Below are positions 9,220 to 36,702 of a DNA stretch of 64,000 nucleotides, in pieces. The notes under the pieces are model-generated. The model ran no database searches and was not told the origin of the DNA. It was given only the letters and a program-made list of their open reading frames with translations. The position numbers and the translations under genes are program-made. Positions within the stretch are counted from its first letter, which is position 1; the number at the start of each line of letters is the position of its first letter. The DNA comes from Malaciobacter mytili LMG 24559 (lineage in GTDB: Bacteria > Campylobacterota > Campylobacteria > Campylobacterales > Arcobacteraceae), in contig NZ_CP031219.1 in the NCBI RefSeq assembly GCF_003346775.1, positions 1,178,001-1,242,000 of the forward strand, given 5' to 3'.

Positions 9220-9252
9220 AACTTAAGCCATTTTTATGGCTTAAGTTCTTTT
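9220..9252 (+). terminator. Rho-independent terminator of acnB
   Basis: Perfect 11-bp stem AACTTAAGCCA / TGGCTTAAGTT (9220-9230 with 9237-9247) with loop TTTTTA, followed by CTTTT. Placed 6 bases after the acnB stop codon. Confidence 0.85.
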
Positions 9253-9258
9253 AATGCA

Positions 9259-9273
9259 TATGAATTTTCATTC
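9259..9273. promoter_or_regulatory. Candidate TetR operator upstream of tetR (site O1)
   Basis: TATGAATTTTCATTC contains the inverted repeat ATGAA-TT-TTCAT and fits the pattern ATGA-N3-TTCATT shared with the sites before both hydrogenase operons (12386, 18452 and 18519). It lies 57 bases before the TTG start of the regulator gene, suggesting autoregulation, which is common in TetR systems. It is the least perfect of the four. Confidence 0.45.
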
Positions 9274-9329: not shown

Positions 9330-9923
9330 TTGTCTGCAAAAGAGTTAAAAAAGAATAATATTATTGAAAATGCACTAAAGTTATTTTCTAAAAAAGGCTT
9401 TTATAATACTACTATTCCTGATATAGCAAAAGCCATGAAAATGAGTGTTGGAAATATGTACAATTACTTTGCATCAAAAGAAGAATTAGCAAAATATGCA
9501 ATTAAATATTCTACAAATATTTTAGCAAATCAGTTAAAAGAGATTAATCATAAACAAATTTCATCAAAAGAAAAAATCTTTTTATTTACAAAACAATATT
9601 TGGAAAATGTAAAAAATTCTCCAGAAGTAATTGAATACTTCTTAAGAGTATATCTTTCAAATAGGGAAGTTTTTGCACAAGGATGTGAAGGTTTTTTATG
9701 TGTAAGTGAATTTGTAACAGAAGTTATGATATTACTTGATGAAGGTGCACAAAGTGGTGAATTTAGAGAGCAAGAGTTTTTTACTGCTTTTTCTATGATT
9801 ATGGGATGCCTTGGTGGTTTTGCATTCTTAAGTGGAGAAAAAGTTTTAGATAAAGACTTAATTGAATATTCTAATTCAATTTCTGAAAATATTTATAGAG
9901 CATTAAAAAGTGATAAGGCATAA
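9330..9923 (+). CDS. TetR/AcrR-family transcriptional regulator, probable hydrogenase regulator
   Basis: A 197-residue regulator. Residues ~8-52 form the TetR DNA-binding domain (IIENALKLFSKKGFYNTTI...MSVGNMYNYFASKEEL). The C-terminal domain is alpha-helical and has three cysteines, C119 and C124 (GCEGFLC) and C160, which could be redox- or metal-responsive (inference). The start is a TTG at 9330: no in-frame ATG precedes it, and AAAGG lies just upstream. The next gene starts inside its end with a GTG (14-base overlap), so it is coupled to a hydrogenase pair. Sites of one inverted-repeat type lie before this gene and before hydA1 and hydA2, so I infer it controls hydrogenase expression. The ligand or signal is unknown. 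Confidence 0.85.
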   Translation: MSAKELKKNNIIENALKLFSKKGFYNTTIPDIAKAMKMSVGNMYNYFASKEELAKYAIKYSTNILANQLKEINHKQISSKEKIFLFTKQYLENVKNSPEVIEYFLRVYLSNREVFAQGCEGFLCVSEFVTEVMILLDEGAQSGEFREQEFFTAFSMIMGCLGGFAFLSGEKVLDKDLIEYSNSISENIYRALKSDKA

Positions 9924-10800
9924 ACCAAAAGTTGTTTGGATTCAAGCAATAACATGTAATGGTAATACACACTCTTTATTAAGTTCAAACTATAGTAGGT
10001 TTGAACTTTTTTTAAATAGTTTTGATTTTTTTTATCATCCTTCTCTTACTACTCAAAATTCATTAGAAGATGTTTTTTCTTTAAAAGAAATAGATTTTTT
10101 ATTAATAGAAGGTGCAATAAGTTCTAATAAAGAATTTTATTCAATTTCTAATAATGATACTTTAAGTTTACTTGAAAAACTAGCAAATAAATCAAAATAT
10201 ATAATATGTGTAGGTTCTTGTGCTTCTTATGGTGGAGTTCATGCAAAATTTGAGGAAAATAAGCAAATAAAAGGGGTAAGTGATTATCTTATTTCATGGA
10301 ATTTAGAAAAAATAAAACACCCTATAATTAATCTTACAGGCTGTCCTGTACATCCTGAATGGATACTTCAAACTCTTTTTTCATTAAAACAAAGAGAAAC
10401 TATAGCCTTAGATGAAAATAAAAGACCAAAAGAGATATATTATGGTTTAGCTCATCATGGCTGTACTAGAAATGAGTATTTTGAATGGAAAGTTGAAGCA
10501 AAAAGTTTTGGAGTAAAAGAGGGATGTTTATTTTATGAACAAGGTTGTAGAGCTCCTATGACACATAGTAATTGTAATAGAATTTTATGGAATGATGTAA
10601 ATTCAAAAACAAGAGCAGGTATGCCCTGTATTGGTTGTACAGAATTTGATTTTCCAAGAAATAATATGCTAGAAACTAAAAAAAATATTGGTATTCCAAT
10701 GGATGTACCATTGGGAATTAATAAAAGAGCATATTTAACCCTAACAGGGGTTGCAAAAACTTTTAAAATAGATAGACTAAATAAAAAATTAATTGAGTAG
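9910..10800 (+). CDS. Group 2-like [NiFe] hydrogenase small subunit, putative H2-sensing
   Basis: A 296-residue small (Fe-S) subunit without a Tat signal or membrane anchor, hence cytoplasmic. The N-terminal WIQAITCNGNTHSLL is CxxN (C16, N19) where the proximal cluster usually has CxxC. The remaining Fe-S ligands are visible: CVGSCASYGG, TGCPVHPEW, HHGCTRNEYF, GCLFYEQGC, SNCN and PCIGC. From memory, cyanobacterial HupS has a similar CSGNTMS start, so it fits group 2 (uptake or sensor HupU/HoxB-like). It starts with GTG inside tetR and ends 3 bases before the large subunit. The long C-terminal tail that HoxB proteins use to bind their kinase was not seen, and no kinase gene is adjacent. A catalytic rather than sensory role remains possible. 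Confidence 0.8.
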   Translation: MIRHKPKVVWIQAITCNGNTHSLLSSNYSRFELFLNSFDFFYHPSLTTQNSLEDVFSLKEIDFLLIEGAISSNKEFYSISNNDTLSLLEKLANKSKYIICVGSCASYGGVHAKFEENKQIKGVSDYLISWNLEKIKHPIINLTGCPVHPEWILQTLFSLKQRETIALDENKRPKEIYYGLAHHGCTRNEYFEWKVEAKSFGVKEGCLFYEQGCRAPMTHSNCNRILWNDVNSKTRAGMPCIGCTEFDFPRNNMLETKKNIGIPMDVPLGINKRAYLTLTGVAKTFKIDRLNKKLIE

Positions 10801-10803
10801 AAA

Positions 10804-12159
10804 ATGAAAACAGTTGATATAGTTGAAAGAATAGAAGGTGAAGCAAAACTAGTATGTTCTTGGAAAGAAAATAAAATTTCTGATGCAAGAATTGAGTTTT
10901 TAAATTTTAGAGGTTTTGAGTATATTTTACAAAATAAACCTATTTTAGATTCATTAGTATATACACCAAGAATTTGTGGAATTTGTGGACAAGCTCATCT
11001 AAAAGCAACTGTTGAAGCTTTAGAAAATATTTATGAAAATGTAAATGAAGCTTTAGTTATTACAAATAAAGCAAAATTATTAAGAGAAATAGGTTTAAAT
11101 ATAGAAATTATTGATTCCCATATTAAATGGTTTTATATGTTTATTATGCCTGATATTGCAAAATTATCAAATGATATTAAATATAATAAATATGAACCTT
11201 TAAAGGGTTCTTTATGGTTAAATGCTTCAAGAGTGGCTAGTGAGACTATTAAAGCAATAGCAATAATTGGTGGACAATGGCCACATACTTCATATATGAT
11301 ACCTGGTGGGGTTATGAGTGATCCCACACTATTTGATTTAACTTCAATGCAAAACTATTTAGAACAAGCAATTATTTTTTTTGAAAATACTTTAGGTGGT
11401 ATAGATTTTGAAGAGTATTTAGCTTTTAGCAATATGGAAGATTTTCTAAAAACTAATGGTTCTTTAATTGATTTTAAAAATATAGCTTTTAAAAATAATT
11501 TGGAAAAAATTGGTAAAGCCTATGATTCTCATATAGTTTTAGGTTCTAGCTCTTTATTTGAAAGTGGAAAAATTAAAATAAAAAATATAAGTAAAATAGA
11601 TAGCTCAAAAATCTCTGAAAGTAGTATAAATACTTTTAAAGTTAATATTTCAAAAAAAGAAAATGAATATACTTGGTCAAAAACAGCTTTATATGCCAAT
11701 GAATTTTATGAAACAGGTCCTTTATCAAGGGCACTAATTTCAAATAGAAAATTTATAAAAACTATACATAAAGAGTATCAAGATAGTGTTTTTACAAGAG
11801 TATTAGCTAGGATGGATGAATTGGCACATCTTTTATATACTACTAAAAAATTAATTTCAAAAGTAGATACTAGTGAACCTTCTTTTATAAAACCTAAATA
11901 TTCTTTAAATGATATTGAAACTGCAATAGGTAGTTCTTTTATAGAAGCTTCAAGAGGCTCATTATCTCATAAAGTAGAAGTAAGTAAAGGATTAATTAAA
12001 ACTTATGATGTAATTACTCCTACTGTTTGGAATTTGGGACCTGGAATAAAAGATAAATATGGAGTTGCACAAAAAGCAATTGTTGGTTTAGATTCTATAT
12101 CAAAAGCAGAAATAGTTTTAAGAAGTTTTGATATATGTTCTGTATGTACTACACACTAA
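10804..12159 (+). CDS. Group 2-like [NiFe] hydrogenase large subunit, putative H2-sensing
   Basis: A 451-residue catalytic subunit. The L1 motif RICGICGQAH gives nickel ligands C58 and C61. The L2 motif DICSVCTTH (C445, C448) is the very end of the protein: it stops at H451, so there is no C-terminal peptide for a maturation protease. That arrangement is known for H2-sensing HupV/HoxC and differs from HydB1 and HydB2 here, which both carry a 22-residue tail. The conserved RIEGE near residue 10 and EASRGSLSH are present. Cytoplasmic by composition. Cotranscribed with tetR and the small subunit. Inserting nickel would still need HypA/B and HypCDEF, all encoded further on. Confidence 0.82.
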   Translation: MKTVDIVERIEGEAKLVCSWKENKISDARIEFLNFRGFEYILQNKPILDSLVYTPRICGICGQAHLKATVEALENIYENVNEALVITNKAKLLREIGLNIEIIDSHIKWFYMFIMPDIAKLSNDIKYNKYEPLKGSLWLNASRVASETIKAIAIIGGQWPHTSYMIPGGVMSDPTLFDLTSMQNYLEQAIIFFENTLGGIDFEEYLAFSNMEDFLKTNGSLIDFKNIAFKNNLEKIGKAYDSHIVLGSSSLFESGKIKIKNISKIDSSKISESSINTFKVNISKKENEYTWSKTALYANEFYETGPLSRALISNRKFIKTIHKEYQDSVFTRVLARMDELAHLLYTTKKLISKVDTSEPSFIKPKYSLNDIETAIGSSFIEASRGSLSHKVEVSKGLIKTYDVITPTVWNLGPGIKDKYGVAQKAIVGLDSISKAEIVLRSFDICSVCTTH

Positions 12160-12321: not shown

Positions 12322-12385
12322 TAATTAAAAGTAACTAAAAAAATTAAGTTTTAGATAAGTCTTTAATAGATATTTTTCCTTTAGT

Positions 12386-12401
12386 AAATGAATGTTCATT
12401 T
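12386..12401. promoter_or_regulatory. Candidate TetR operator upstream of hydA1 (site O2)
   Basis: AAATGAATGTTCATTT: perfect 7-2-7 inverted repeat, also readable as AAATGA-N3-TTCATTT, the same arrangement and spacing as site O4 before hydA2. It ends 23 bases before the chosen hydA1 start and just before its ribosome-binding site, so binding would block transcription or elongation. Confidence 0.6.
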
Positions 12402-12424: not shown

Positions 12425-13660
12425 ATGGTAGATTCTCAAGATATGGTAAAAAAAGTTTTTACCCAAAAATCTGCAAGAATTGATACAAATAAAGGTGAGG
12501 AGTACTACAACTGCTTATTTGAAAATGCAAAACAAAGAATATCTATGCTACAAAAACAGCCAGCATTAAAAGACATAGATATGATAGATGTAATTGAAAG
12601 TGAAGGTATTAATAGAAGAGATTTTATGAAGTGGGTTAGTGCTACTACAGCAACACTTATGCTTCCTCCTATGTTTGAACCTTTAGTTGCACAAGCTACA
12701 GAGCTTATGAATAGAGTTCCTGTTGTTTGGATTGAGTTACAAGACTGTGCGGGGAATTCTGAAGCACTTTTAAGAAGTTCTGCTCCTACAGTTGATGATT
12801 TGCTTTTTGATGTGCTTAGTTTAGAGTTTCATGAAACACTACAAGCTGCTGCTGGACATGATGCTGATAGACAACTTGAAGAAGCGGTTGAACACTTTAA
12901 AGGAAAATATTTACTATTTGTTGAGGGTGCTATTCCTATGGCAAATGATGGTAAATATGGAACTATTGGTGCAAGTGGAGAGACATTTCATGAACATTTA
13001 ATGAGAATGTCAAAAGATGCAGCAGCAGTTGTTGCGGTTGGTACATGTGCTACTTTTGGAGGAATTCCAGCTGCTGCTCCTAACCCAACAGGTGCTGTTG
13101 GAGTTATGGATTTAGTAAAAGGTAAACCTGTTGTAAATATTCCTGCTTGTCCTGCAAACCCAGCTAATATGGTTGGTGTTATTTTACACTTTGTTTTAAC
13201 TGGTCAAATCCCTGAATTAGACTCACTTTTAAGACCCAAATTTGCTTTTGGATATAGAATTCATGATAACTGTGAAAGAAGAGCACACTTTGATGCGGGT
13301 GAATTTGTTGAAGAATGGGGAGATATAGGTGCACAAAATAATTGGTGTTTATATAAAGTTGGTTGTAAAGGACCAATGACTTTTAATAATTGTTCTATTA
13401 TAAGATACAACGAAGGTACAAACTGGCCAGTTGGTGTTGGTAGAGGTTGTATTGGATGTAGTGAACCTGACTTTTGGGATAAATATGCTTATGAAAGACC
13501 AATGGCAAATGCAAATATTAAAGCTCCAACTGGTGGAGTAGAAAAGACTGTTGATGAGTTTGGTCTTGGATTATTAACTGCTACAACAATTGGTATTGGA
13601 CTACATGCAGTTGCAAGTGCAATTGCTGGTAAAAAATCAGAACAAAATGAGGAAGAATAA
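12425..13660 (+). CDS. hydA1: [NiFe] uptake hydrogenase 1, small subunit precursor
   Basis: 411-residue small subunit of a membrane-bound, periplasm-facing hydrogenase. The Tat signal NRRDFMKW (R64-R65) follows an unusually long ~60-residue leader. A C-terminal hydrophobic anchor (about the last 35-12 residues) tethers it to the membrane beside HydC. The proximal-cluster motif is DCAGNSEALL: C108 is kept but the second cysteine is N111. The other ligands (GTCATFGG, PACPAN, HDNC, NWC...GC, NNCS, GCIGC) are intact. The start ATG at 12425 has AAGGAGAG six bases upstream; an in-frame ATG at 12392 lies within the operator and lacks a site. Ends 2 bases before hydB1. Confidence 0.92.
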   Translation: MVDSQDMVKKVFTQKSARIDTNKGEEYYNCLFENAKQRISMLQKQPALKDIDMIDVIESEGINRRDFMKWVSATTATLMLPPMFEPLVAQATELMNRVPVVWIELQDCAGNSEALLRSSAPTVDDLLFDVLSLEFHETLQAAAGHDADRQLEEAVEHFKGKYLLFVEGAIPMANDGKYGTIGASGETFHEHLMRMSKDAAAVVAVGTCATFGGIPAAAPNPTGAVGVMDLVKGKPVVNIPACPANPANMVGVILHFVLTGQIPELDSLLRPKFAFGYRIHDNCERRAHFDAGEFVEEWGDIGAQNNWCLYKVGCKGPMTFNNCSIIRYNEGTNWPVGVGRGCIGCSEPDFWDKYAYERPMANANIKAPTGGVEKTVDEFGLGLLTATTIGIGLHAVASAIAGKKSEQNEEE

Positions 13661-13662
13661 AT

Positions 13663-15402
13663 ATGACAAAAAAACATTTAGTAATTGATCCAATCACAAG
13701 AATTGAAGGACATCTTAGAATTGAAGCAATCATTGATGAAAATAACGTTGTAACTGATGCCTATGCTTCTTCTACTATGTTTAGAGGTATTGAGGAGATT
13801 TTAAAAGGAAGAGATCCAAGAGACTGTGGACTTTTAGCTATGAGAATTTGTGGAGTTTGTACAGGTACACACTACCAAAGAAGTATAGAGGCTGTTGAGC
13901 ATGCTTTTGGTATTACAATTCCAAAAAATGCAAGACTAGTTAGAAACTTAATGCAAGGTGCTTTATATGTACATGACCATATTGTTCACTTCTATCATTT
14001 ACATGCACTAGACTGGGTAGATATAACAGAAGCATTAAAAGCTGACCCTAAAAAAGCAGTAGCAGAAGCTCAAAAATGGGCAAGTGTATCAGGTGAACTT
14101 CCATTTAATGCAAGTGAAGATGTATATAAAGAAGTACAAGAAAGAGTAACAAAATATATTAAACAAGGAAGACTTGGAATTTTTGGAAATGCTTATTGGG
14201 GTTCAAAAGGTTTTAAATTAAATCCTGAGCAAAACTTAATAGGACTTTCTCACTATTTAGATGCATTAGAAATTCAAAGAGAACTTGGAAAAATGATGGC
14301 TATATTTGGAGGGAAAAATCCACATCCACAATCACTTGTTGTTGGTGGGGTAACTTGTGTTCAAGATATTAAAAACCCTTCAAGAATTGCTGAATTTAAA
14401 CAAATTCTTAAAAAAGGTAGAAAATTCTGTAAGCAAGCATATTTACCTGATGTTTATATGGCTGGAACTATGTATGCAGATGAAGCCTTAGAAGGTATTG
14501 GTGGGGGAATTGGAAACTTTATGTCTTATGGAGATTTTAATTTAGATGATTTACCATTTTATAAAGCTTCTAAACTTTTCCCATCAGGAATTGTAAAAAA
14601 TAAAGATTTATCAAAAGTTTATGAATTAGACCAAACAAAAATTACAGAAGATGTAACTCATGCTTGGTATGAAGGGAACTCAAATTTACACCCATTTGAT
14701 GGTGAAACAAAACCAAATTATACAGGTTTTGGTAAAAAAGAGGAAAATATTGCTTATTTAGATACTAAAAATAAGTATTCGTGGATTAAATCACCACTAT
14801 ATGATGATGAGAGAATGGAAGTTGGTCCACTAGCAAGGATGATTGTAGGAGTTGCAAAAGGTGATGAAAGAATTACTAAATATGTAACTACATTCTTAAA
14901 AAATGGAAATTTACCAACAAAAGTATTATTCTCAACAGTTGGAAGAACAGCTGCTCGTGCAATAGAGACTGAACTTATGGCTGATATTATGATGCAATGG
15001 TGTGATGAATTAGCTTCAAATGTTGCCCATGGAGATTTATCTACTTGGACAGAATTTGATTTTGACAAAGTTTCAAAAGATGCACAAGGTTATGGAATGG
15101 CTGAAGCTCCAAGGGGAGGATTAGGACATTGGGTTAAGATTAAAGATGGAAAAGTTGTAAATTATCAAGCAGTAGTTCCTTCAACTTGGAATGCAGCACC
15201 TAGGGATTATAAAGGAAGACTAGGGGCATATGAGTCATCTTTAATTGGAACAAAAGTTGCTAATGTTGAGCAACCATTGGAGATTTTAAGAACAGTACAT
15301 AGTTTTGACCCTTGTATTGCTTGTGCGGTTCACTTAATTGATACAAAAGGGAAAGAATTAGGTGTTTATAAAGTAGATCCAGTAGGGGGATGCCGTGCCT
15401 AA
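13663..15402 (+). CDS. hydB1: [NiFe] uptake hydrogenase 1, large subunit
   Basis: A 579-residue catalytic subunit that oxidises H2 and passes electrons to HydA1. L1 is RICGVCTGTH (C63, C66, H70). L2 is DPCIACAVH (C551, C554, H557), followed by a 22-residue C-terminal extension ending GGCRA that must be cut off after H557 by the HydD protease once nickel is in place. It would be exported with HydA1 on the single Tat signal. Overlaps hydC1 by 8 bases. Similar along its length to HydB2 (19726), so the two operons arose from a duplication or from two related acquisitions. Confidence 0.95.
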   Translation: MTKKHLVIDPITRIEGHLRIEAIIDENNVVTDAYASSTMFRGIEEILKGRDPRDCGLLAMRICGVCTGTHYQRSIEAVEHAFGITIPKNARLVRNLMQGALYVHDHIVHFYHLHALDWVDITEALKADPKKAVAEAQKWASVSGELPFNASEDVYKEVQERVTKYIKQGRLGIFGNAYWGSKGFKLNPEQNLIGLSHYLDALEIQRELGKMMAIFGGKNPHPQSLVVGGVTCVQDIKNPSRIAEFKQILKKGRKFCKQAYLPDVYMAGTMYADEALEGIGGGIGNFMSYGDFNLDDLPFYKASKLFPSGIVKNKDLSKVYELDQTKITEDVTHAWYEGNSNLHPFDGETKPNYTGFGKKEENIAYLDTKNKYSWIKSPLYDDERMEVGPLARMIVGVAKGDERITKYVTTFLKNGNLPTKVLFSTVGRTAARAIETELMADIMMQWCDELASNVAHGDLSTWTEFDFDKVSKDAQGYGMAEAPRGGLGHWVKIKDGKVVNYQAVVPSTWNAAPRDYKGRLGAYESSLIGTKVANVEQPLEILRTVHSFDPCIACAVHLIDTKGKELGVYKVDPVGGCRA

Positions 15403-16105
15403 ATTTAAAAGGGTTGAGAGAATGACTCCAATCATGCGAACGATTCACTGGATGAATGCGATTTGCATGGTTGTTGCAGTTGCAACTGGGTTATATATCG
15501 GATATCCATACTATCAAACATTAATTGCAGACCCTGCAGTTGATAAGTATGTTATGGCTTGGAATAGATGGGGACACTTTATTGCAGCAATTATTTTTGA
15601 TGTTACTGCAATTTTAATTGGGTATCTTTATTTATTTTCAAATTTTGAAAAACCATATAAAAAAATACTTCCAACAAAGAAAAACTTTATTGAATTTTGT
15701 GAAGTATTTTTTAACTTAATGACTTTTAATAGAAGAAAAAAATTTGACTCATCACATAGTGATAGTTACAATATTATGTTTTTTACTCTATTTCATATTT
15801 TGTTAGTATTTATGTTACTTACAGGATTACAACTATATGTACATGGATTAGGTTCAGGACATAGTTCAATTGGAGCTTGGTGGCCATGGATTTTACATTT
15901 AAGTACAGACTGGACATTAAGTGTATTTGGTGGAAATATGGGAGTTAGAATTGCACATCATACAACAATGTATTTACTAATTATGTGGGTAATGTGCCAT
16001 ATTTATTATCAAATTTGGAGAACTATTTTCTGGCAAGAAGGTGATATTGCAATTGTATTTAGTGGATATAAATTTGCTAAAAATAAAAAAACAGAAGATA
16101 AATAA
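15395..16105 (+). CDS. hydC1: [NiFe] hydrogenase 1 cytochrome b subunit
   Basis: A 236-residue, four-helix membrane cytochrome b that accepts electrons from HydA1 and reduces quinone. Haem-ligand histidines are seen in TIHWMNAI, WNRWGHFIAA and HHTTMYLLIMW...CHIYYQIW. The GTG at 15395 is used here because GGGGGA precedes it at good spacing and it overlaps hydB1; the ATG at 15422 with a weaker GAGAG site would remove nine residues and is the alternative. C-terminal YQIWRTIFWQEGDIAIVFSGYK matches HydC/HyaC ends. Followed by two hairpins before hydD1. Confidence 0.93.
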   Translation: MPKFKRVERMTPIMRTIHWMNAICMVVAVATGLYIGYPYYQTLIADPAVDKYVMAWNRWGHFIAAIIFDVTAILIGYLYLFSNFEKPYKKILPTKKNFIEFCEVFFNLMTFNRRKKFDSSHSDSYNIMFFTLFHILLVFMLLTGLQLYVHGLGSGHSSIGAWWPWILHLSTDWTLSVFGGNMGVRIAHHTTMYLLIMWVMCHIYYQIWRTIFWQEGDIAIVFSGYKFAKNKKTEDK

Positions 16106-16185: not shown

Positions 16186-16770
16186 ATGAAAAATATTGTG
16201 ATTGGGGTAGGGAATCTACTTTTTAAAGATGAAGGTGTAGGTATTTATGCATCAAAATATATTGAAGAAAATTATAAGTTTGAAGGCAATTTAGAGATTA
16301 TTGATGGTGGAACATTAGGGTTTAAACTAATGAGTTATTTTCAAGATTACGATAATGTAATTATTTTAGATACAGTTTCTATTGAAGATAAAGTAGGGGG
16401 GATATATAGACTTCCTTCTGATGTTTTATTAGGCTTAGGTAATTATAGAAAAACAGCCCATGAAGTTGAGATTGTTGAGATGTTAGAAATTTGTTCTGTT
16501 TTAAAAAAACATGCTCAAGTTACTATTATAGGTATTATCCCTCAAGATATTGAAAAAGTTGAAATTGGTTTAACAAATGAGATTGAACAAGCCTTTGAAG
16601 GTTTTATAAATACTGCAATAACTGAAATAGAATCAATTGGAGTAAAAGCTTTTAAAATTAATAATAAATCAATAAAAGATATTGCACAAGGACTTATTGG
16701 AAGTTATAATGGGGAACATTTAAGTAGAGTACCAAATGAAGAGGATATTAGATATGCAAATGTTTTATAA
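16186..16770 (+). CDS. hydD1: Hydrogenase 1 maturation protease
   Basis: A 194-residue endopeptidase of the HyaD/HybD (M52) family that removes the C-terminal peptide of HydB. Motifs seen are GVGNLLFKDEGVG (with the nickel-sensing acidic residue in DEG), DGGTLGFKL, a LDTV acidic strand, and AHEVEIVEML with the conserved histidine. Its partner is likely HydB1, from the same operon. A second protease, hydD2, follows hydB2, in line with the known one-protease-per-hydrogenase specificity. Overlaps hydE1. Confidence 0.9.
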   Translation: MKNIVIGVGNLLFKDEGVGIYASKYIEENYKFEGNLEIIDGGTLGFKLMSYFQDYDNVIILDTVSIEDKVGGIYRLPSDVLLGLGNYRKTAHEVEIVEMLEICSVLKKHAQVTIIGIIPQDIEKVEIGLTNEIEQAFEGFINTAITEIESIGVKAFKINNKSIKDIAQGLIGSYNGEHLSRVPNEEDIRYANVL

Positions 16771-18280
16771 AATTGAGTTTAATAATACAAATGAATATTT
16801 TATAAATCTTATACAAGAACAAATATTTGAAGATAAAATAAATATACAAATAAAAAAATATGAAAAATTTATTATATTACATATAAATGATAGCGAAGAA
16901 AAAATAACTGAGTTTTTTCAAAACTTAGAAAAAAATCTTCCCTTATCAATCTTTTTAAAAGGTGCTAGTTTTATAGAAAAAATACCTGAAGAATTAAAAG
17001 AGTTAAGCTTAGATAACCTACAACAAAATATCTCTTTATCAAATAAAGAAATTTTAAAATTAGTAGAAAATAGAACTGTTGATTTTACAAATGAGATAAA
17101 ACAGTTAAAAGAAGGTAAAATTATTGAGCTTTCTACTTCAAATGGAATAAAAAAATTTTCATTACCAAATAAGGAAAATAGAATAAAACTTCAAGAGGAA
17201 AATGAAGTTAATCTTTTTGTTTCAAATATAAATGCTATATCCTCTTTATTGGAGTGTTCTTCAAAGGATTTACAACTTTTATGTTCAATTGAAAGACCAC
17301 TTGTAAAATTAAAGTTTAACTTTTTACAAAATAAGGATTTACAATACTCTTGTATCTCTTTTATTTATACAAAACTACCTGATGATAAACTTACTTTTGA
17401 ATTTGCTCTTGCACTAAAAGAAGAGGGGATTGATTTTTTAATTTATAGTGATTTTAATGTAATGCAAAAAGATATACAAGTTACATATTTTAAAGATGAA
17501 AATATAATTATTAGAGGAGATAAAACTCTATTTCCTAAATATGATATTCAAGATAAAAAGGTTTATAACTCATCAGATGAGTTTTTCTGTTTAAATGGTG
17601 GAATATATAAAACTATTATAAAAAAAGAAAATAAAAGAAGTTCAAATTCAATTGGAGTATATTTTTCATATAATAGTGAAGAAAGTAAAATAAGTTTAAA
17701 TCTTCCAACAAAAGGAATAAAAGATATTGTATATATTCCAAATATAGAAAATTCTATTAGTTCTTGTATGGAAGATATTGCTTCTATGGATGAAAATACT
17801 GCAAGATTAGTGGAAAACTATAAGAAAAAATTTCCTTTATATTTTAAAAAAGATTTAGATCAAAATACAAATGGATTTGTATCTATTTTAAATTTTATTG
17901 CAGTTATGCTTGGTATGAAAGACTATAAAGAGTTTGAATCTTATGCTCATTCTTATAATTCAAAAAGTGGAATACAAATAGATATGAAACTTTTTAAATA
18001 TAAAGATAAAAATTATTTAGATTATAGAAAAATTGCCCACTCAATTTTTAGCTATAAACTTGCTGATGTTGATAATGCTCTTTTAGCTTTTTCATTTTAT
18101 GAAAGTTTAAGTGAGTTTATAAAAAATAGTATTGAAGAGATAAATAAAGATATTGAAAGTAAAAATATAATTTTATGTGGAGATATAATAGTAAATTCTA
18201 TTTTACTTTCTAAGTTGGATAAAGAATTATCAAATAATTTTACACTAGTAATTCCAAAAAATTATCCAATTGATTATTAA
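16754..18280 (+). CDS. hydE1: HydE-like hydrogenase maturation protein 1 (HypF-related, no zinc motif)
   Basis: About 508 residues, very lysine/asparagine-rich. The C-terminal part (YKLADVDNALLAFSFYESLSEFI...IILCGDIIVNSILLSKL) aligns by eye with HydE2 (22681) and with the end of HypF (VLTGGVFQNKTLLEKL). This is the position of hydE in Wolinella and Helicobacter hyd operons, where HydE is needed for active hydrogenase. Unlike HydE2, no CxxC pairs occur in the N-terminal third, so the zinc site has been lost. Start ATG 16754 chosen because GAAGAGG lies 9-10 bases upstream; ATG 16760 is possible. Overlaps hydD1 by 17 bases. Biochemical role unknown. Confidence 0.72.
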   Translation: MQMFYKIEFNNTNEYFINLIQEQIFEDKINIQIKKYEKFIILHINDSEEKITEFFQNLEKNLPLSIFLKGASFIEKIPEELKELSLDNLQQNISLSNKEILKLVENRTVDFTNEIKQLKEGKIIELSTSNGIKKFSLPNKENRIKLQEENEVNLFVSNINAISSLLECSSKDLQLLCSIERPLVKLKFNFLQNKDLQYSCISFIYTKLPDDKLTFEFALALKEEGIDFLIYSDFNVMQKDIQVTYFKDENIIIRGDKTLFPKYDIQDKKVYNSSDEFFCLNGGIYKTIIKKENKRSSNSIGVYFSYNSEESKISLNLPTKGIKDIVYIPNIENSISSCMEDIASMDENTARLVENYKKKFPLYFKKDLDQNTNGFVSILNFIAVMLGMKDYKEFESYAHSYNSKSGIQIDMKLFKYKDKNYLDYRKIAHSIFSYKLADVDNALLAFSFYESLSEFIKNSIEEINKDIESKNIILCGDIIVNSILLSKLDKELSNNFTLVIPKNYPIDY

Positions 18281-18448: not shown

Positions 18449-18466
18449 ATGAATGACTATTCATTT
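18449..18466. promoter_or_regulatory. Candidate TetR operator, distal site before hydA2 (site O3)
   Basis: ATGAATGACTATTCATTT contains the perfect ATGAAT-GACT-ATTCAT inverted repeat and, in the other register, AATGA-CTA-TTCATTT, matching O2 and O4. It lies 68 bases upstream of O4 (AATGA to AATGA), a spacing of about six and a half helical turns. Confidence 0.5.
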
Positions 18467-18513: not shown

Positions 18514-18539
18514 AAAATAAATGACCGTTCATTTATTTT
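18514..18539. promoter_or_regulatory. Candidate TetR operator, proximal site before hydA2 (site O4)
   Basis: The strongest site of the set: a perfect 11-4-11 inverted repeat whose centre is AAATGA-CCG-TTCATTT (18519-18534). It ends 11 bases before the AAGGAAG ribosome-binding site of hydA2, like O2 before hydA1. Binding here would block the promoter or the elongating polymerase. Confidence 0.6.
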
Positions 18540-18561: not shown

Positions 18562-19722
18562 TTGAAAACAACTGATTTATTTAGTAGGTTATCAAAGAGA
18601 TTATCAAGTTTAGAAAAACTTCCAAAACTTGATGATAAAAAGTCAATACCTTCAGTTTTAGAAGAAAAAGGTATTAACAGAAGAGAGTTTATGAAATGGG
18701 CGGGAGCAATGACTGCTATGCTTGCACTTCCTGCAAATTTTACTCCATTAGTTGCTAAAGCTGCTGAACTTAGTGATAGACTACCAATTATTTGGCTACA
18801 TATGGCTGAATGTACAGGTTGTTCGGAATCTCTACTTAGAACAGATGCACCAACTATTGATTCACTTATTTTTGATTATATCTCTTTAGAATACCACGAA
18901 ACTTTAATGGCTGCTGCTGGATGGCAAGCTGAACATAATTTAGAGTCTGCTATTGAAAGATATAAGGGGCAATATATTTTAATGGTAGAAGGTGGAATAC
19001 CATCAGGTGAAAATTCTTTTTATTTAACTATTGGTGGTCATGGAAAAACAGGTGAGCAAAATGCAAAAGAGGCTAGTGAGCATGCTGCTGCTATTTTTGC
19101 TATTGGTACATGTTCTAGTTTTGGTGGAGTTCAAGCTGCAATGCCAAATCCAACAGGAGCAGTTGCCTTATCAAAAGTTACAAATAAAACTGTTATAAAT
19201 GTACCAGGATGTCCTCCTAGTGAAAAAAATATTGTTGGTACACTTCTTCATTTTATTTTATACGGTACATTACCTGCACTTGATGCTTACAATAGACCAA
19301 AATGGGCATATGGATTAAGAATTCACGATTTATGTGAGAGAAGAGGAAGATTCGATGCTGGTGAGTTTGTTGAAGAGTTTGGTGATGAGGGTGCAAAAAA
19401 AGGTTATTGCTTATATAAAGTAGGTTGTAAAGGACCTTATACTTTTAATAACTGTTCAAAAAATAAATTCAACTCACATATGTCTTGGCCAATTCAAGCA
19501 GGACATGGTTGTATTGGATGTTCTGAACCTGACTTTTGGGATACAATGGGACCATTTGAAGAACCAGTTGCAGATAGATTATATGATACTGTATTTGGTG
19601 GTTTAGGTGCTGATGCTACTGCTGATAAAATTGGAGTAGGATTATTAACTGTTACAGGTATTGGGATTGCTGCACATGCTGCAATTTCTAAATTTAAAAA
19701 CCCAAAAGAAGATGAGGAGTAA
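18562..19722 (+). CDS. hydA2: [NiFe] uptake hydrogenase 2, small subunit precursor
   Basis: 386-residue small subunit with a Tat signal NRREFMKW (R40-R41) and a C-terminal membrane anchor (VGLLTVTGIGIAAHAAISKF). Its proximal motif is the normal ECTGCSES (C84, C87); the extra cysteines of oxygen-tolerant group 1d enzymes are absent. Remaining ligands (GTCSSFGG, GCPPS, HDLCERR, GYC...GC, NNCS, GCIGC) are intact. This is the closer match to Wolinella/Helicobacter HydA (group 1b, WLHMAECTGCSESLLR). The start is TTG at 18562 with an AAGGAAG site; no better codon is available. First gene of the second hyd operon, behind two TetR-type sites. Confidence 0.94.
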   Translation: MKTTDLFSRLSKRLSSLEKLPKLDDKKSIPSVLEEKGINRREFMKWAGAMTAMLALPANFTPLVAKAAELSDRLPIIWLHMAECTGCSESLLRTDAPTIDSLIFDYISLEYHETLMAAAGWQAEHNLESAIERYKGQYILMVEGGIPSGENSFYLTIGGHGKTGEQNAKEASEHAAAIFAIGTCSSFGGVQAAMPNPTGAVALSKVTNKTVINVPGCPPSEKNIVGTLLHFILYGTLPALDAYNRPKWAYGLRIHDLCERRGRFDAGEFVEEFGDEGAKKGYCLYKVGCKGPYTFNNCSKNKFNSHMSWPIQAGHGCIGCSEPDFWDTMGPFEEPVADRLYDTVFGGLGADATADKIGVGLLTVTGIGIAAHAAISKFKNPKEDEE

Positions 19723-19725
19723 AAA

Positions 19726-21456
19726 ATGGCTAATAAAAGACTAATCGTTGATCCAATTACAAGAATTGAAGGACACTTAAGAATTGAAGTTGAAATCGAT
19801 GAAAATAATGTAATTCAAAAAGCTTACTCTTCTTCAACTTTATGGAGAGGTTTAGAAACAATTGTAAAAAATAGAGATCCAAGAGATGCTGGATTTTTAA
19901 TGCAAAGAATCTGTGGTGTTTGTACATATTCACATTATAGAGCAGGTATTGAAGCTGTTGAAGATGCTTTAGGTATCGTTCCTCCTTTAAATGCAAAATT
20001 AACTAGAAGTTTAATGAATCAAGCTCTGTTTTTACATGACCATATTATTCATTTCTATCATTTACATGGACTTGATTGGGTAGATGTGGTATCTGCACTT
20101 AAAGCTGATCCTGCAAAAGCTTCAAAAGAGGCTTTTAAATATGCAAAATATCCAATTGCAACAGGTGAAAATGATTTAAAAGCTGTACAAGATAAAGTTG
20201 CATTATTTGTAAAAAAAGGACAATTAGGCCCTTTTGCAAATGCATATTGGGGACATGAAACATATAAATTAACACCTGAACAAAATTTAATTGCCTTATC
20301 ACACTATTTAAAAGCTTTAGAAATTCAAAGAGAATTAGCAAAAATGATGGCAATTTTTGGAGGAAAACAACCACATCCACAAAGTTTAACTGTTGGTGGA
20401 GTTACTTGTATTATGGATTTATTAGACCCTTCAAGAATGGGTGAATATTTAACTATTTTTAAAATGGCTCAAAATTTTGTTGATAATGCTTATTATGCAG
20501 ATGTATTAATGGCTGCAAAAGCTTTTAAAACAGAACCTTCTGTTGTACAAAAAAGAGGGGTTATGAACTTTATGTCTCATAAAGAGATGCAGTTAAATAG
20601 AAGTGAGTTCTTATTTGATACAGGTATTATTATTAATGGTGATATATCAAAAGTTTATCCAATTAATGAGGATTTAATTACTGAAGAAGCAACACACTCT
20701 TGGTATAAAGATAATCAACCATTACATCCTTATGAAGGAAAAACAAATCCAAATTATACAGGTTTTGTAAATAGAGATACAATTGGAATGGATGGAAAAG
20801 AAATTCATTCTAAATCAATTGATGAAAAAGGAAAATACTCTTGGATTAAATCACCAAGATATGATGGAAAACCAATGGAAGTTGGTCCTTTAGCAGCAGT
20901 TTTAGTATCTTATGCTAGTGGAAATAAAAAAATTAGAAAAGTAGTTGATGAGTTTTTAGCACTATCAGGACTTCCTGTTGAAGCATTATTTACTACTTTA
21001 GGAAGAACAGCAGCAAGAATGCTTCAAACAAAAGCAATTGCTGATAATGGATTAGAAGCATTTACAACTTTAATTGAAAATTTAAAAGTTGATCAAGAAA
21101 CTTATACTTCTTATAAAATTGATAAAGATAAAGAGTATAAAGGAAGATTTATTGGAGACGTTCCAAGAGGTATGTTATCTCACTGGATTAGAATTAAAAA
21201 TGGAGTTGTAGAAAATTATCAAGCAGTAGTTCCATCAACATGGAATGCAGGTCCAAAAGATGCAAATGGTTTAATAGGACCATATGAATCAAACTTAGTA
21301 GGAATGAAAGTTGCTGATATTTCTCAACCATTAGAAATTATTAGAGTTATTCATAGTTTTGACCCTTGTATTGCTTGTGCTGTTCATGTAATGGACACTA
21401 AAGGTAATGATTTAGGTGTTCATAAAGTAGACCCAATTTATGGGGCAATCTGCTAG
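19726..21456 (+). CDS. hydB2: [NiFe] uptake hydrogenase 2, large subunit
   Basis: A 576-residue H2-oxidising subunit. L1 is RICGVCTYSH (C63, C66, H70). L2 is DPCIACAVH (C548, C551, H554) followed by a 22-residue tail ending YGAIC, removed during maturation. It starts 3 bases after hydA2 with a GATGAGGAG ribosome-binding site inside the end of hydA2. It has an insertion relative to HydB1 at about residues 345-360 (NRDTIGMDGKEIHSK). Exported with HydA2; electrons leave via HydC2 to the quinone pool. Confidence 0.95.
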   Translation: MANKRLIVDPITRIEGHLRIEVEIDENNVIQKAYSSSTLWRGLETIVKNRDPRDAGFLMQRICGVCTYSHYRAGIEAVEDALGIVPPLNAKLTRSLMNQALFLHDHIIHFYHLHGLDWVDVVSALKADPAKASKEAFKYAKYPIATGENDLKAVQDKVALFVKKGQLGPFANAYWGHETYKLTPEQNLIALSHYLKALEIQRELAKMMAIFGGKQPHPQSLTVGGVTCIMDLLDPSRMGEYLTIFKMAQNFVDNAYYADVLMAAKAFKTEPSVVQKRGVMNFMSHKEMQLNRSEFLFDTGIIINGDISKVYPINEDLITEEATHSWYKDNQPLHPYEGKTNPNYTGFVNRDTIGMDGKEIHSKSIDEKGKYSWIKSPRYDGKPMEVGPLAAVLVSYASGNKKIRKVVDEFLALSGLPVEALFTTLGRTAARMLQTKAIADNGLEAFTTLIENLKVDQETYTSYKIDKDKEYKGRFIGDVPRGMLSHWIRIKNGVVENYQAVVPSTWNAGPKDANGLIGPYESNLVGMKVADISQPLEIIRVIHSFDPCIACAVHVMDTKGNDLGVHKVDPIYGAIC

Positions 21457-22137: not shown

Positions 22138-22697
22138 ATATCTTAATTTTAGGTATTGGAAATATCCTTTTTCAAGATGAAGGGATGGGAGCACATTTTA
22201 TTCACTATTTAGATGAAAAATATGAATTTACTAGTGAAGAAAATAGTGTAAGTATAGTAGATGGTGGAACATTAGCCCATAGGCTAATTCCACTAATCGT
22301 TAAATATGATTATATAATTGTAATAGATTGTATTGATGCTCTTAATTCAAAAGCTGGAGATGTATATTTCTTTGATTTTGAAAATACTCCTAAAGAGATT
22401 GATTGGCAAGGAAGTGCACATGAAATTGAGATGCTTCAAACACTTAATATGATAAAAATGAATGGTGATTTACCTAATACAAAAGTTTTAGGAATTATTC
22501 CTAAAAGAGTTGCTGATGATACTACTTTTGAATTAAGTCAAGAGGTTATAATTGCAACTTCAACTATGGAACATACTATTATTGAACATCTTAAAGATTT
22601 AAATATAACTTGTAATATTAAAAATAAAGATGTAACTATTACAGATATAGCAGAAGTTTCTTATAAAAGAGAGATTATAAATGGTCCTAAAATTTAA
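22134..22697 (+). CDS. hydD2: Hydrogenase 2 maturation protease
   Basis: A 187-residue HyaD/HybD-family endopeptidase, presumably specific for HydB2. GIGNILFQDEGMG contains the conserved nickel-sensing acidic residue; VDGGTLAHRL, VIDCIDAL and SAHEIEMLQTL are the other family motifs. Overlaps hydC2 by 4 bases and hydE2 by 17, so the operon is tightly coupled. Confidence 0.92.
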   Translation: MNILILGIGNILFQDEGMGAHFIHYLDEKYEFTSEENSVSIVDGGTLAHRLIPLIVKYDYIIVIDCIDALNSKAGDVYFFDFENTPKEIDWQGSAHEIEMLQTLNMIKMNGDLPNTKVLGIIPKRVADDTTFELSQEVIIATSTMEHTIIEHLKDLNITCNIKNKDVTITDIAEVSYKREIINGPKI

Positions 22698-24336
22698 TTT
22701 TTTATATAACTCAAATAATAGTAATTTATTATTTTTTTTAGAAAATATAGTTAATCAATCAGCTTTAGAGTATAAACTTTTAAAAAAAGAAGCTATTGAA
22801 CTATATGTACAAGGAAATGAAGAAGAGTTAATCTCTTTTTCAAATGAATTAAGTTCATCTTTACCTATGTCAATTTTTTTAAAAAATAGTACAGCAGAAG
22901 TTGTACCACAAATACCAACTGAAGAAAATACTACTTTTAAATTAGAAGAATTAAACTTGCCATTTTGCTCTTCATGTTTAAAAAAAGTAGAAGATTCTAC
23001 AAAACTTGATAATTTTTACAATCCTTTCGTATCATGTACTATTTGTGGTACAACTTGTGATGTAAAAGAGTTGAAACTTTTAAAAAATAATATCTCAATT
23101 GAGATAAAAGATAATAAAGAACTTTTTGAAAAAGTTGCAAGTTTAATAAATGAAGATAAAAGTATAAAAATTAAAACTTTATCAGGTGAGTTTATATTTA
23201 AAAAATTTAATCCTTCTTTAGAAAATAATACAATACTTTGTACAAATCTTGAAAATATTTCAAAAGTTTTTGTTGCTTCAAAAGCTGAAGTAGTTGCCCT
23301 TGCAAGTATTGAAAAACCTTCAATAGATTTAAGAATAAATGAAGTATTTAAACTATCAAATAATGTAAAACAAGAGATTTTAAATGTAAGATTTGTAAAT
23401 GATTTAATTTTATATTTAATAAGTAAAGAGTTAGAAAAATATAATATTGATTTTTTAAGTTATGATAAAACTTCTTTATATGATTATGAAGTAACTTTTG
23501 AAGGAATAGTTAAACCTTTAGATATTTTAAAAGTTAAAATTTTAGAGAATGATACTGTTATTTTAGAATCAAATTCATATGATAAAACTTTAGATACTAT
23601 TTATTCAAAATTTAAAGAAGAATCAAAAGGTCATTTTATGGTACTTTTACATGAATATGATTTTTATGAAAAAGCTATTTTAAATTTTTATTCTTCTTCA
23701 AAAAATGATGATAATATTATTTTATATTCAAAAGAGATAGATGGTTTTTTAGATATTGTAAAATATGAACTTCCCCAATCAATAAATGAAATTTTTGAGA
23801 CTTTAAAAAGTGATGAAGTAGCAACTAGATTAGTTGATAATTATAAAAACAAATTTCCAAATGAGTATGAAATAGCTCTTTCTTGTGATATTTCTTCTTT
23901 AAAAGAAAACTCTATTTATTCATATTGGAAAATTGTTTCTGTTATTTTAGGTTTTACTTCTAAAATAGAACAAAATAATATTCTTTTAGAAAAAGCAATG
24001 GCTTGCGTTTTAGAAAAGGGACCTAGAATTGATTATAAGTTAAAAGAATCTGATAAGATTTTTAATAGAAATTTTTTATTATATAAATTAATTCAATCTG
24101 GAATGAGTTTTAAATTAGCAGGAGTTGATGATAATACTTTAGCTTTAGGGTATATTGAAAGTTTTGCTCATTATATTGCAACTTTAGTTGATGATATAAA
24201 TAATGAAGTAACTTTAGATGGTATTAGTTTAACAGGAGATATTTTTACAAATACCTTAATTTCAAAATTGGTACATAAAAGTATTACTAAAAATTTTAAA
24301 ATATACTATAATAAGGACTTCGTAATACAAAAATAA
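22681..24336 (+). CDS. hydE2: HydE-like hydrogenase maturation protein 2 (HypF-related, with zinc-finger motif)
   Basis: 551 residues. C96-x2-C99 and C119-x2-C122 (plus C126) reproduce one of the two zinc-finger units of HypF (CQDC...CTNCG in the adjacent hypF). The C-terminal third, with LAGVDDNTLALGYIESFAHYIATLVDDI...GISLTGDIFTNTLISKL, aligns with the Kae1-like end of HypF. The acylphosphatase domain motif (GxVQGVGFRP) and the HHYAH motif of HypF are missing, so it should not catalyse carbamoyl transfer as HypF does. Matches the gene called hydE in Wolinella and Helicobacter. The family's molecular role is not known to me. Confidence 0.78.
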   Translation: MVLKFNFLYNSNNSNLLFFLENIVNQSALEYKLLKKEAIELYVQGNEEELISFSNELSSSLPMSIFLKNSTAEVVPQIPTEENTTFKLEELNLPFCSSCLKKVEDSTKLDNFYNPFVSCTICGTTCDVKELKLLKNNISIEIKDNKELFEKVASLINEDKSIKIKTLSGEFIFKKFNPSLENNTILCTNLENISKVFVASKAEVVALASIEKPSIDLRINEVFKLSNNVKQEILNVRFVNDLILYLISKELEKYNIDFLSYDKTSLYDYEVTFEGIVKPLDILKVKILENDTVILESNSYDKTLDTIYSKFKEESKGHFMVLLHEYDFYEKAILNFYSSSKNDDNIILYSKEIDGFLDIVKYELPQSINEIFETLKSDEVATRLVDNYKNKFPNEYEIALSCDISSLKENSIYSYWKIVSVILGFTSKIEQNNILLEKAMACVLEKGPRIDYKLKESDKIFNRNFLLYKLIQSGMSFKLAGVDDNTLALGYIESFAHYIATLVDDINNEVTLDGISLTGDIFTNTLISKLVHKSITKNFKIYYNKDFVIQK

Positions 24337-34060: not shown

Positions 34061-35056
34061 ATGAAAACAGTTACTTTAGCCCATGGAAATGGTGGAGCAG
34101 AAAATCAAGAGTTAATTTCAAAAGTTTTTTACAAAGCTTTTAAAAATGAAATTTTAACAAAAAGTGAAGATGCTGCTGTTATTGAAGATGGAAATTTAGC
34201 TTTTACTACTGATTCTTTTACAGTAAGTCCACTTTTTTTTAATGGAGCTGATATAGGAAAATTATCTATTTGTGGAACTTGCAATGATTTAGCTATGATG
34301 GGTGCAAAGCCTAAATATCTCACATGTTCAGTTATTATTGAAGAGGGCTTTGAAATTAAAAGCTTAGAAAAAATTGTAAAATCAATGAAAAATGAACTAG
34401 AAATAAATGGTGCAATTATTGTAAGTGGTGATACAAAGGTAGTGCCAAAAGGAAGTGTAGATAAAATCTTTATAAATACTACTGGTATTGGGCAAATTTT
34501 ACAAAAAGGAATTAGCTCAAACTTAATTTCTAGTGAAGATATAATAATAGTAAGTCGAGATATAGGATGTCATGGTGCAACTATTTTTGCAGCACGAGAA
34601 GGTATGGATATGAATAGTGATTTAAAAAGTGATTGTGCTTCTTTATACCCACAAATAAAAGCTTTAATTGAAGCTGGTATTAAAATAACTGCTTTAAGAG
34701 ATGCAACAAGAGGTGGAGTTAGTGCTGTTTTAAATGAATGGGCAAATCAATCTGATATTTGTATTGAAGTGCAAGAAGATAAAATACCCATATCAGATGA
34801 AGTAAAAGGTATTTGTGAATTACTTGGCTTTGAACCTATGAGTTTAGCAAATGAGGGGACTTTTGTAATGGCTATAAAAAAAGAAGAAGCTTTAAAAGCC
34901 TTAGAGGTTTTACAAAAATTCGAAAACTCAAATAATGCTTGTATTATTGGGGAAGTTACTCAACAATATCCTAAAAAAGTTGTATTAAATTCAGCTTGGG
35001 GAACAAAAAGGTTTTTAGAGTTACCAACTGGTGAACTTCTTCCTAGAATCTGCTAA
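34061..35056 (+). CDS. hypE: Hydrogenase maturation protein HypE (carbamoyl dehydratase)
   Basis: A 331-residue PurM-like ATPase that dehydrates the carbamoyl group received from HypF to a thiocyanate on its C-terminal cysteine. The protein ends PRIC, exactly the required C-terminal motif. LAHGNGGAENQELI near the N-terminus and DLAMMGAKP, GDTKVVP are ATP-site motifs. Overlaps hypX by one base (TAATG). Confidence 0.97.
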   Translation: MKTVTLAHGNGGAENQELISKVFYKAFKNEILTKSEDAAVIEDGNLAFTTDSFTVSPLFFNGADIGKLSICGTCNDLAMMGAKPKYLTCSVIIEEGFEIKSLEKIVKSMKNELEINGAIIVSGDTKVVPKGSVDKIFINTTGIGQILQKGISSNLISSEDIIIVSRDIGCHGATIFAAREGMDMNSDLKSDCASLYPQIKALIEAGIKITALRDATRGGVSAVLNEWANQSDICIEVQEDKIPISDEVKGICELLGFEPMSLANEGTFVMAIKKEEALKALEVLQKFENSNNACIIGEVTQQYPKKVVLNSAWGTKRFLELPTGELLPRIC

Positions 35057-36702
35057 TGAAAATTTTATTATTAATCTCTTCTTTTAACTCACTATCTCAA
35101 AAAGTATATGTGAGGTTAAAAGAACAAAATCATATAGTAAGTATTAAGTATGCAATAGATAATAAACTTATGATAGAAGAGGTTAAGTCTTTTAAACCAG
35201 ATATTATTCTTTGTCCTTTTTTAAATAAGTTTGTTCCAAAAGAGATTTATGAAAATACCGCAACTTTTATTGTTCATCCTGGAATTATAGGAGATAGGGG
35301 TGCAAATTCACTGGATTTAGCAATTTTAGAAGATAAAAAACAGTGGGGAGTTGTAGTTTTAAAAGCAAATGAAGAGTTTGATGGAGGAGATATTTACTCT
35401 TTTGAAAATTTTTCTATGCCCAATAAAAGTAAAGCTTCAATATATAGAAATGAAGTTACAAACTGTGCAATTAAAGCAATAGATAAACTTTTTATTAATC
35501 TTCAAGATAGCTCTTTTAGTCCAATTAAACAAGTTTTAAACCCCCTTCATAAAAAAATAACTCAAGAAGATAGAAAAATTAATTGGGAAAAAGATAGCAG
35601 TAGTGAGATTATTAAAAAAATAAATGCAAGTGATTCAAGTCCTGGGGTTAAAGAAACTTTATTGGGCTTACCTTGTTATATGTATGGAGCTTTTTTAGAA
35701 GAAGAGTTAAAAGGAAAACCAAAACAAATAGTTGCAAAAAGAGATGGAGCTATTTGTATAGGAACTATTGATAAAGCAGTTTGGATTACACATTTAAAAG
35801 AAGAAAACTACTTTAAACTACCCACAACTTATGTATTAAAAGATAGATTAAAAGGTGTAGTTGAAAAAAGAGTACCTTTAGTTTTGACTAAACATATAGA
35901 TACTTTTTATGAATTAAGAGTCGAAAAAGAAGAAGAAATAGCATATTTATATTTTAATTTTCATAATGGAGCTATGAGTACAGCTCAGTGTATAAGATTG
36001 AAATATGCAATAGATTACTTAAAAGAAGAGTGTAAAGTTCTTGTTTTAATGGGAGGAGAAGACTTTTTTTCAAATGGAATACATTTAAATATTTTAGAAG
36101 ATAGTAAAAAACAAGGGGAAGATGGTTGGAGTAATATCAATGCTATTAATGATATTATTAAATCTTTAATTTTCTCTTCAGAAATTATTACTGTTACTAG
36201 TTTTGGGAAAAATGCAGGTGCTGGAGGAGTTTTTTTAGGGCTTGCAAGTGATTATATAGTAATTAATGAAGAAGTGGTTTTAAATCCCCATTATAAAACT
36301 TTGGGTTTAAGTGGAAGTGAGTATCACAGCTTTACTCTTCCAAAAAGAGTGGGAGAACTTAAAGCAAAAGAGATAATAAATAAATGTTTACCCCTTGGAA
36401 GTAGTGAAGCTAAAAATATCGGTTTAGTAGATAAAGTGTTTAAAAATGAGAATTATCTAAAAGAGTTAAAAGAGTTTTGCAAAGATTTACTTAAAGATGA
36501 AGATAGTTTTGATGAGTTTTGTGAACAAAAAGAAGAGTTTTTAGAAGAAAATGCAAAGTATATTAATTCTTGTAAAGAAAAAGAATTAAAACAAATGTAT
36601 GATGAATTTTGGAAAGAAGAGTCTTTATTTCATATTTTAAGAAAAGAGTTTGTTTATAAAAAACAAGCTTTAAAAACCCCACAAAGATTAAAGGAGATAT
36701 AA
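35056..36702 (+). CDS. hypX: HypX/HoxX: formyl-THF-dependent CO ligand synthesis
   Basis: A 548-residue two-domain protein. The N-terminal half resembles formyl-tetrahydrofolate transferases (FIVHPGIIGDRGANSLDLAI, with the conserved His-Pro-Gly and WGVVVLKANEEFDGGDI). The C-terminal half is a crotonase fold (VLVLMGGEDFFSNGIHLNILED and NAGAGGVFLGLASDYIV). In Cupriavidus HypX makes the active-site CO ligand from formyl-THF under oxic conditions. It sits within hyp genes between hypE and hypA, with one-base overlap and one-base spacing. Presence suggests that hydrogenase maturation works under microaerobic or oxic conditions. Confidence 0.93.
   Translation: MKILLLISSFNSLSQKVYVRLKEQNHIVSIKYAIDNKLMIEEVKSFKPDIILCPFLNKFVPKEIYENTATFIVHPGIIGDRGANSLDLAILEDKKQWGVVVLKANEEFDGGDIYSFENFSMPNKSKASIYRNEVTNCAIKAIDKLFINLQDSSFSPIKQVLNPLHKKITQEDRKINWEKDSSSEIIKKINASDSSPGVKETLLGLPCYMYGAFLEEELKGKPKQIVAKRDGAICIGTIDKAVWITHLKEENYFKLPTTYVLKDRLKGVVEKRVPLVLTKHIDTFYELRVEKEEEIAYLYFNFHNGAMSTAQCIRLKYAIDYLKEECKVLVLMGGEDFFSNGIHLNILEDSKKQGEDGWSNINAINDIIKSLIFSSEIITVTSFGKNAGAGGVFLGLASDYIVINEEVVLNPHYKTLGLSGSEYHSFTLPKRVGELKAKEIINKCLPLGSSEAKNIGLVDKVFKNENYLKELKEFCKDLLKDEDSFDEFCEQKEEFLEENAKYINSCKEKELKQMYDEFWKEESLFHILRKEFVYKKQALKTPQRLKEI

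Follow-up and report, generated by a model that had tools for sequence, protein, structure and literature searches.

What might a [NiFe] hydrogenase have to tell a transcriptional regulator encoded in the same unit? The question is raised by a locus of Malaciobacter mytili LMG 24559, analysed within a window of 64,000 nucleotides (the whole stretch of DNA under study), in which a tetR gene runs directly into the genes for the small (S) and large (L) subunits of a cytoplasmic [NiFe] hydrogenase. For almost twenty years there has been disagreement over what the cytoplasmic group 2 hydrogenase does in vent and free-living Campylobacterota, with a sensor on one side and a ferredoxin-linked enzyme on the other (PMC4584964, PMC2628731). 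H2 sensing is the view of Nakagawa 2007, as cited in PMC4584964, and the label given to the hydrogenase in PMC2628731; ferredoxin-linked catalysis is the view of Sievert 2008 and Guiral 2005, as cited in PMC4584964 and PMC5357620. We consider it probable that tetR-S-L is an H2-responsive TetR repressor circuit that controls the uptake hydrogenase, in which S-L acts as sensor and TetR is partnered by S. If true, this would be a second mode of H2 sensing, one-component and kinase-free, and conserved in two phyla that are major oxidisers of hydrogen.

The tetR-S-L unit and its conservation

The three genes form one unit on the + strand. tetR (9330..9923, TTG start, 197 aa) encodes a FadR-like TetR family regulator with a pair of cysteines, Cys119 and Cys124; S (9910..10800, GTG start, 296 aa) carries a CxGN proximal motif; and L (10804..12159, 451 aa) is a large subunit of group 2d type with a CxxCxxH end. 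A terminator-like hairpin in the gap between acnB and tetR (9220..9247, + strand) sets the unit apart from acnB. Several details given by the original prediction are borne out. The reading frames of tetR and S overlap by 14 bp; L, in which both CxxC motifs are kept, ends at the final motif histidine without a processing peptide (...SFDICSVCTTH-stop, last residues CTTH); and the S reading frame has no Tat signal, Tat-type N-termini being found on both group 1 small subunits of the window, the second of them above the Pfam cut-off. A separate observation is a strong hairpin that resembles a terminator, T run included, and lies within the beginning of the S gene (9981-10008); it is kept in most same-genus loci examined and might attenuate S-L relative to tetR.

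The unit is followed in the window by hydA1B1C1D1 and, further on, by hydA2B2. The genes hydA1B1C1 (12425..16105, + strand; hydA1 is listed as an ORF from 12392, its likely start being the ATG at 12425) encode a group 1 uptake hydrogenase and cytochrome b and are a predicted target operon. The second group 1 hydrogenase, hydA2B2 (18562..21456, + strand), is a predicted target as well.

Among 397 Campylobacterota genomes surveyed, TetR orthologues were found in 115 and L in 104. The adjacency of tetR and hydrogenase genes extends across the phylum: by a strict count, 99 of the 104 L-bearing genomes have tetR upstream of L and on its strand with one small-subunit gene between the two, far more often than chance would allow. 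Of the five exceptions, we take three to be genomes in which another gene has come between S and L; a contig end would account for one and a fragmentary tetR hit for the last. Among the fetched loci, 83 have tetR directly upstream of S, with overlapping reading frames in 64. The flank upstream of tetR is variable (acnB, others); on the other side, the unit is in most cases followed by a group 1 uptake hydrogenase operon. Examples of the unit include plasmids of Sulfurimonas paralvinellae and Sulfurovum mangrovi as well as Sulfurospirillum genomes, and the linkage also reaches the Aquificota, where the order in Hydrogenothermaceae is identical. tetR adjoins S even where L is found elsewhere, as in Persephonella and some Campylobacterales MAGs (L is displaced and tetR kept with S at loci L267, L268, L271 and L272). 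Several Aquificaceae have S-L and tetR apart, with tetR near the group 1 hydA instead; TetR is present in 15 of the 17 genomes searched on this point. Five loci of one genus (L039, L044, L047, L050, L060) have the insertion between S and L and keep the tetR-S overlap; the inserted gene, on the opposite strand, is LapG-type cysteine proteinase-like. Correlated distances between TetR, S and L (0.91-0.94) were dropped as a proof, because neighbouring genes are inherited together and such correlations then prove little, and because the HydB control mixes two paralogues.

What kind of hydrogenase S-L is

The original prediction took S-L for a sensor-type hydrogenase like HupUV/HoxBC and the missing C-terminal peptide for a mark of that type. 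The tree of large subunits contradicts the assignment. In this maximum-likelihood tree L is placed with Aquifex, Hydrogenobacter and Hydrogenothermaceae (branch support 86/100), apart from HoxC/HupV and the Huc-type sequences; the window L falls inside a clade of 32 rows from Aquificota and Campylobacterota, and HoxC and HupV form a separate clade (100/99). This placement makes S-L a group 2d hydrogenase of the Aquifex hydrogenase III type and rules out HupUV/HoxBC (group 2b). A group 2D hydrogenase has been reported for this phylum (PMC5401914). S-L does have two traits of group 2b, an L without C-terminal peptide and an S without Tat signal, of which the former does not discriminate: the peptide is missing from L in every 2d-type member of the tree, among them kin of Aquifex hydrogenase III, an enzyme presumed to be catalytic. 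Since the peptide is missing throughout the clade, the trait alone does not mean sensing, and we dropped it as a proof.

With HoxBC-HoxJ-HoxA (Cupriavidus necator pHG1) and HupUV-HupT-HupR the locus has in common a cytoplasmic S-L, an L without C-terminal peptide and hydrogenase/hyp genes nearby. It differs from these group 2b systems in the clade of its large subunit and in its regulator, which here is a one-component TetR whose gene overlaps S, and there a kinase with a sigma-54 activator. With Aquifex aeolicus hydrogenase III (HydDB group 2d) L shares the CxxCxxH end, and it clusters with Aquifex and Hydrogenobacter sequences; a catalytic role has been proposed for the Aquifex enzyme, and most of the Aquificaceae loci examined have S-L apart from tetR. 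The nearest solved chains for both S and L are those of Huc (group 2a), with which the CxGN proximal motif is shared, whereas group 2a large subunits have a C-terminal extension and an adjoining maturation protease gene, unlike L here.

Across S-L members the NiFe ligand cysteines are intact, as are nearly all ligands of the Fe-S relay. The second proximal cysteine of S is Asn in most members (the CxGN motif), as in Huc, and the rest of its cluster cysteines are conserved across 85 sequences. L closes with Gln or Lys rather than His in 15 of 84 sequences, but all of them end at this position. The gas-channel residues of L (CGIC) were tried as a marker of sensory or catalytic function and discarded, because Huc-type enzymes have them too. 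Two other types were met along the way: a further, distant [NiFe] large subunit in other Arcobacteraceae (L082, L086; 26-27% to L, without tetR nearby) and, in one member of the order, a separate HoxBC-like pair within a hyp-like cluster (L112:3989-6420; 37%/35% to HoxB/HoxC).

The predicted operator and the cysteine pair of TetR

Enumeration of gapped palindromes returned AATGA-N4-TCATT (AATGAnnnnTCATT) in 75 of 100 module-associated hydA upstream regions, where the top motif of shuffled sequence reached 6, and in 0 of 30 hydA upstreams of tetR-less genomes, several of which have 83-89% identical HydA. As loci of the same clade are not independent, the Fisher p of 1e-14 for this comparison is only a guide. 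At a 95% shuffle threshold a weight matrix recognises 98 of the 100 module-associated regions and one of the 30 controls; trained on Arcobacteraceae alone, it passes 39 of 44 loci outside that set at a 99% threshold. TetR-family regulators have palindromic operators, and this conserved palindrome, which tracks the presence of tetR, is on sequence grounds a putative binding site for TetR. It stands directly before the hydA ribosome site, as does the predicted operator of hydA1 in the window (AATGAATGTTCATT, 12387..12400); a repressor bound at this position would prevent transcription. Upstream of hydA2 there are two predicted operators (operator 1 at 18452..18465, operator 2 at 18520..18533). 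The 3.04 Mb genome has 13 exact sites, against 9 for a reversed-pattern control, and three of the 13 stand before hydA1 and hydA2.

A weak operator-like site upstream of tetR (TATGAATTTTCATT, 9259..9272) makes autoregulation possible. As the main role of the palindrome, autoregulation was rejected: 29 of 93 tetR upstreams pass the 95% threshold, strong sites are rare there, and none of the three Aquificota tetR regions scored has the palindrome. In Hydrogenothermus, Persephonella and Aquifex MAGs the palindrome is found directly before the group 1 hydA. Its presence there and its absence from the scored tetR upstreams point to hydABC rather than S-L as the main target of TetR, which probably acts on the uptake hydrogenase promoters via the predicted operator.

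TetR has a TetR_N domain (PF00440) and a TetR fold, and the nearest solved fold to its AlphaFold2 model is Bacillus subtilis FadR (Foldseek). FadR, also of the TetR family, binds acyl-CoA and controls fatty-acid genes, whereas here the site marks hydrogenase promoters. The FadR operator, TGAATGAMTANTCATTCA, shares its core with this palindrome. A FadR-like control of the upstream beta-oxidation genes was rejected, as that neighbourhood is not conserved and lacks the operator.

A GCxGxxC motif, containing C119 and C124, is present in all 83 S-linked TetRs and missing from seven of ten unlinked paralogues (Fisher p 1e-8). Two of the three unlinked TetRs that keep it are at hyd loci where S-L was not found (L114, L136), and these two genomes also have the operator, strict or near-consensus. 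All Aquificota TetR orthologues read through that stretch have the pair. The AlphaFold2 model places C119/C124 in the loop preceding helix 126-141, and the pair is a plausible contact or redox point of the S-linked TetRs. TetR paralogues without GCxGxxC were also seen beside group 4 (Ech/Coo-like) hydrogenase or selD-like genes (L127:8074-8652, L139:5541-6122, L124:8696-9349). Those with group 4 neighbours (L127, L139) indicate that this branch of TetR can work without S-L; several of the paralogues without the motif carry CxxxxC a few residues earlier.

Proposed signalling to TetR and its alternatives

In the circuit that we propose, TetR would bind AATGAnnnnTCATT between the promoter and the ribosome site of the group 1 uptake operons (hydABCD), as a repressor rather than an activator. 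S-L, a cytoplasmic group 2d-type [NiFe] pair, would react with H2, and its state would reach TetR via S, most likely by contact or by electron transfer through the Cys119-x4-Cys124 loop; with H2 present, repression would be lifted. Of this scheme, the DNA target and the coupling of the three parts have comparative support. It is conceivable, though on balance doubtful, that electrons from H2 exit via S and directly switch the DNA-bound TetR at Cys119/Cys124, as an ancient kinase-free sensor of Campylobacterota and Aquificota. Against an H2-responsive circuit stand the two genomes that keep tetR, the Cys pair and the operator and in which S-L was not found (L114, L136), and also the TetR paralogues lacking the Cys pair beside group 4 hydrogenases (L127, L139). 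The group 2d relatives in Aquifex, moreover, are regarded as catalytic.

By its description, HupSL-TetR of Sulfurospirillum multivorans (SMUL_1421-1422) is the same type of locus, with the TetR gene directly upstream of hupSL and beside hydABC, an adjacency noted in 2017 (PMC5357620). The published descriptions of this system that we examined do not mention an operator at hydABC, the pair of cysteines or conservation across the phylum. In S. denitrificans the soluble fraction was without H2 uptake although L was transcribed (PMC4584964), and HupSL was absent from Sulfurospirillum proteomes (PMC6242987), both as expected of a low-abundance regulator. By qPCR, hydB of S. multivorans was expressed in almost every condition, and its rise of about twofold with H2/PCE was not significant (PMC5357620). 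Pyruvate-grown cells of this organism produce H2 themselves (PMC6242987), which may blur the measurement; the result still counts against the H2-responsive model.

S-L could instead be a working H2/ferredoxin enzyme like Aquifex hydrogenase III, with TetR a FadR-like, ligand-sensing repressor that receives no signal from S-L and would subject the hydrogenase genes jointly to a single metabolic signal. The clustering of L with Aquificota sequences of the hydrogenase III type agrees with this, and so do the intact NiFe and nearly complete Fe-S ligands, a TetR fold closest to acyl-CoA-binding FadR, and TetR paralogues without the Cys pair that control other loci without S-L. From the literature come the description of the S. 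multivorans TetR as a possible repressor of HupSL itself (Kruse 2017, PMC5357620) and a suggested rTCA role (PMC5401914). We nonetheless find such a division of labour rather unlikely, given an operator that lies upstream of hydABC and is strong at few tetR-S-L units, a Cys pair that is invariant in S-linked TetRs alone, a conserved unit without ferredoxin partner or redox enzyme, and no soluble H2 uptake detected in S. denitrificans. It is very improbable that S-L is a relic whose adjacency to tetR reflects shared transcription and no further function. Such decay would fit the two genomes with tetR but without S-L, the drift of the last L residue and the very low, nearly absent hupL transcripts of S. 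multivorans (PMC5357620), but the order is fixed in two phyla and dozens of genera, the active-site and cluster residues are invariant, and the Cys pair tracks linkage to S.

Signalling through a kinase deserves separate weighing. The original prediction saw no adjacent kinase or NtrC-type regulator, which holds for the genes adjoining tetR-S-L, HupT/HoxJ and HoxA types included. However, the hydrogenase/hyp cluster to which they belong also encodes, 25 kb further downstream, a response regulator of OmpR type together with a kinase whose input domain is SBP_bac_3 (37301-40343). The pair is flanked by hypA on one side and by genes for an OprD-type porin and an SBP_bac_5 ABC transporter on the other, and may regulate the hydrogenase cluster in a way linked to nickel or peptides. 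Upstream of hydA1 there is also a direct repeat with the look of an OmpR-family box (TTAAGTTTTAGATAAGT, 12344..12360, + strand; WTAAGT-N5-WTAAGT, 11-bp period), possibly a second regulator site of hydA1. The OmpR-type pair in the cluster, this repeat and the large number of kinase-domain matches in the genome (about 50) leave room for a contribution from a kinase. That S-L senses H2 and signals via a kinase elsewhere, such as this pair or another of about 50, with TetR a separate input to the same promoters, seems improbable to us all the same. With HoxJ (pHG1) as query, these kinase matches were generic and none was a clear orthologue, and a query with HoxA, searched at E 1e-40 without a positive control, gave no match; none of the loci examined links a kinase to S-L, whereas tetR is nearly always linked to it. 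In a looser pattern the repeat is conserved in 30 of 36 Arcobacteraceae hydA1 upstreams, against one of 20 for hydA2, and is found in two of 44 loci outside the family, where the TetR operator is kept.

Two further features of the wider cluster are worth recording. Proteins of 514 and 551 aa (16736-18280 and 22681-24336), one per hyd operon and conserved in many loci, match the last part of HypF only (PF22521). Between hypE-like and hypA genes lies a fusion of formyltransferase and enoyl-CoA hydratase (35056-36702), which has the architecture of HypX.
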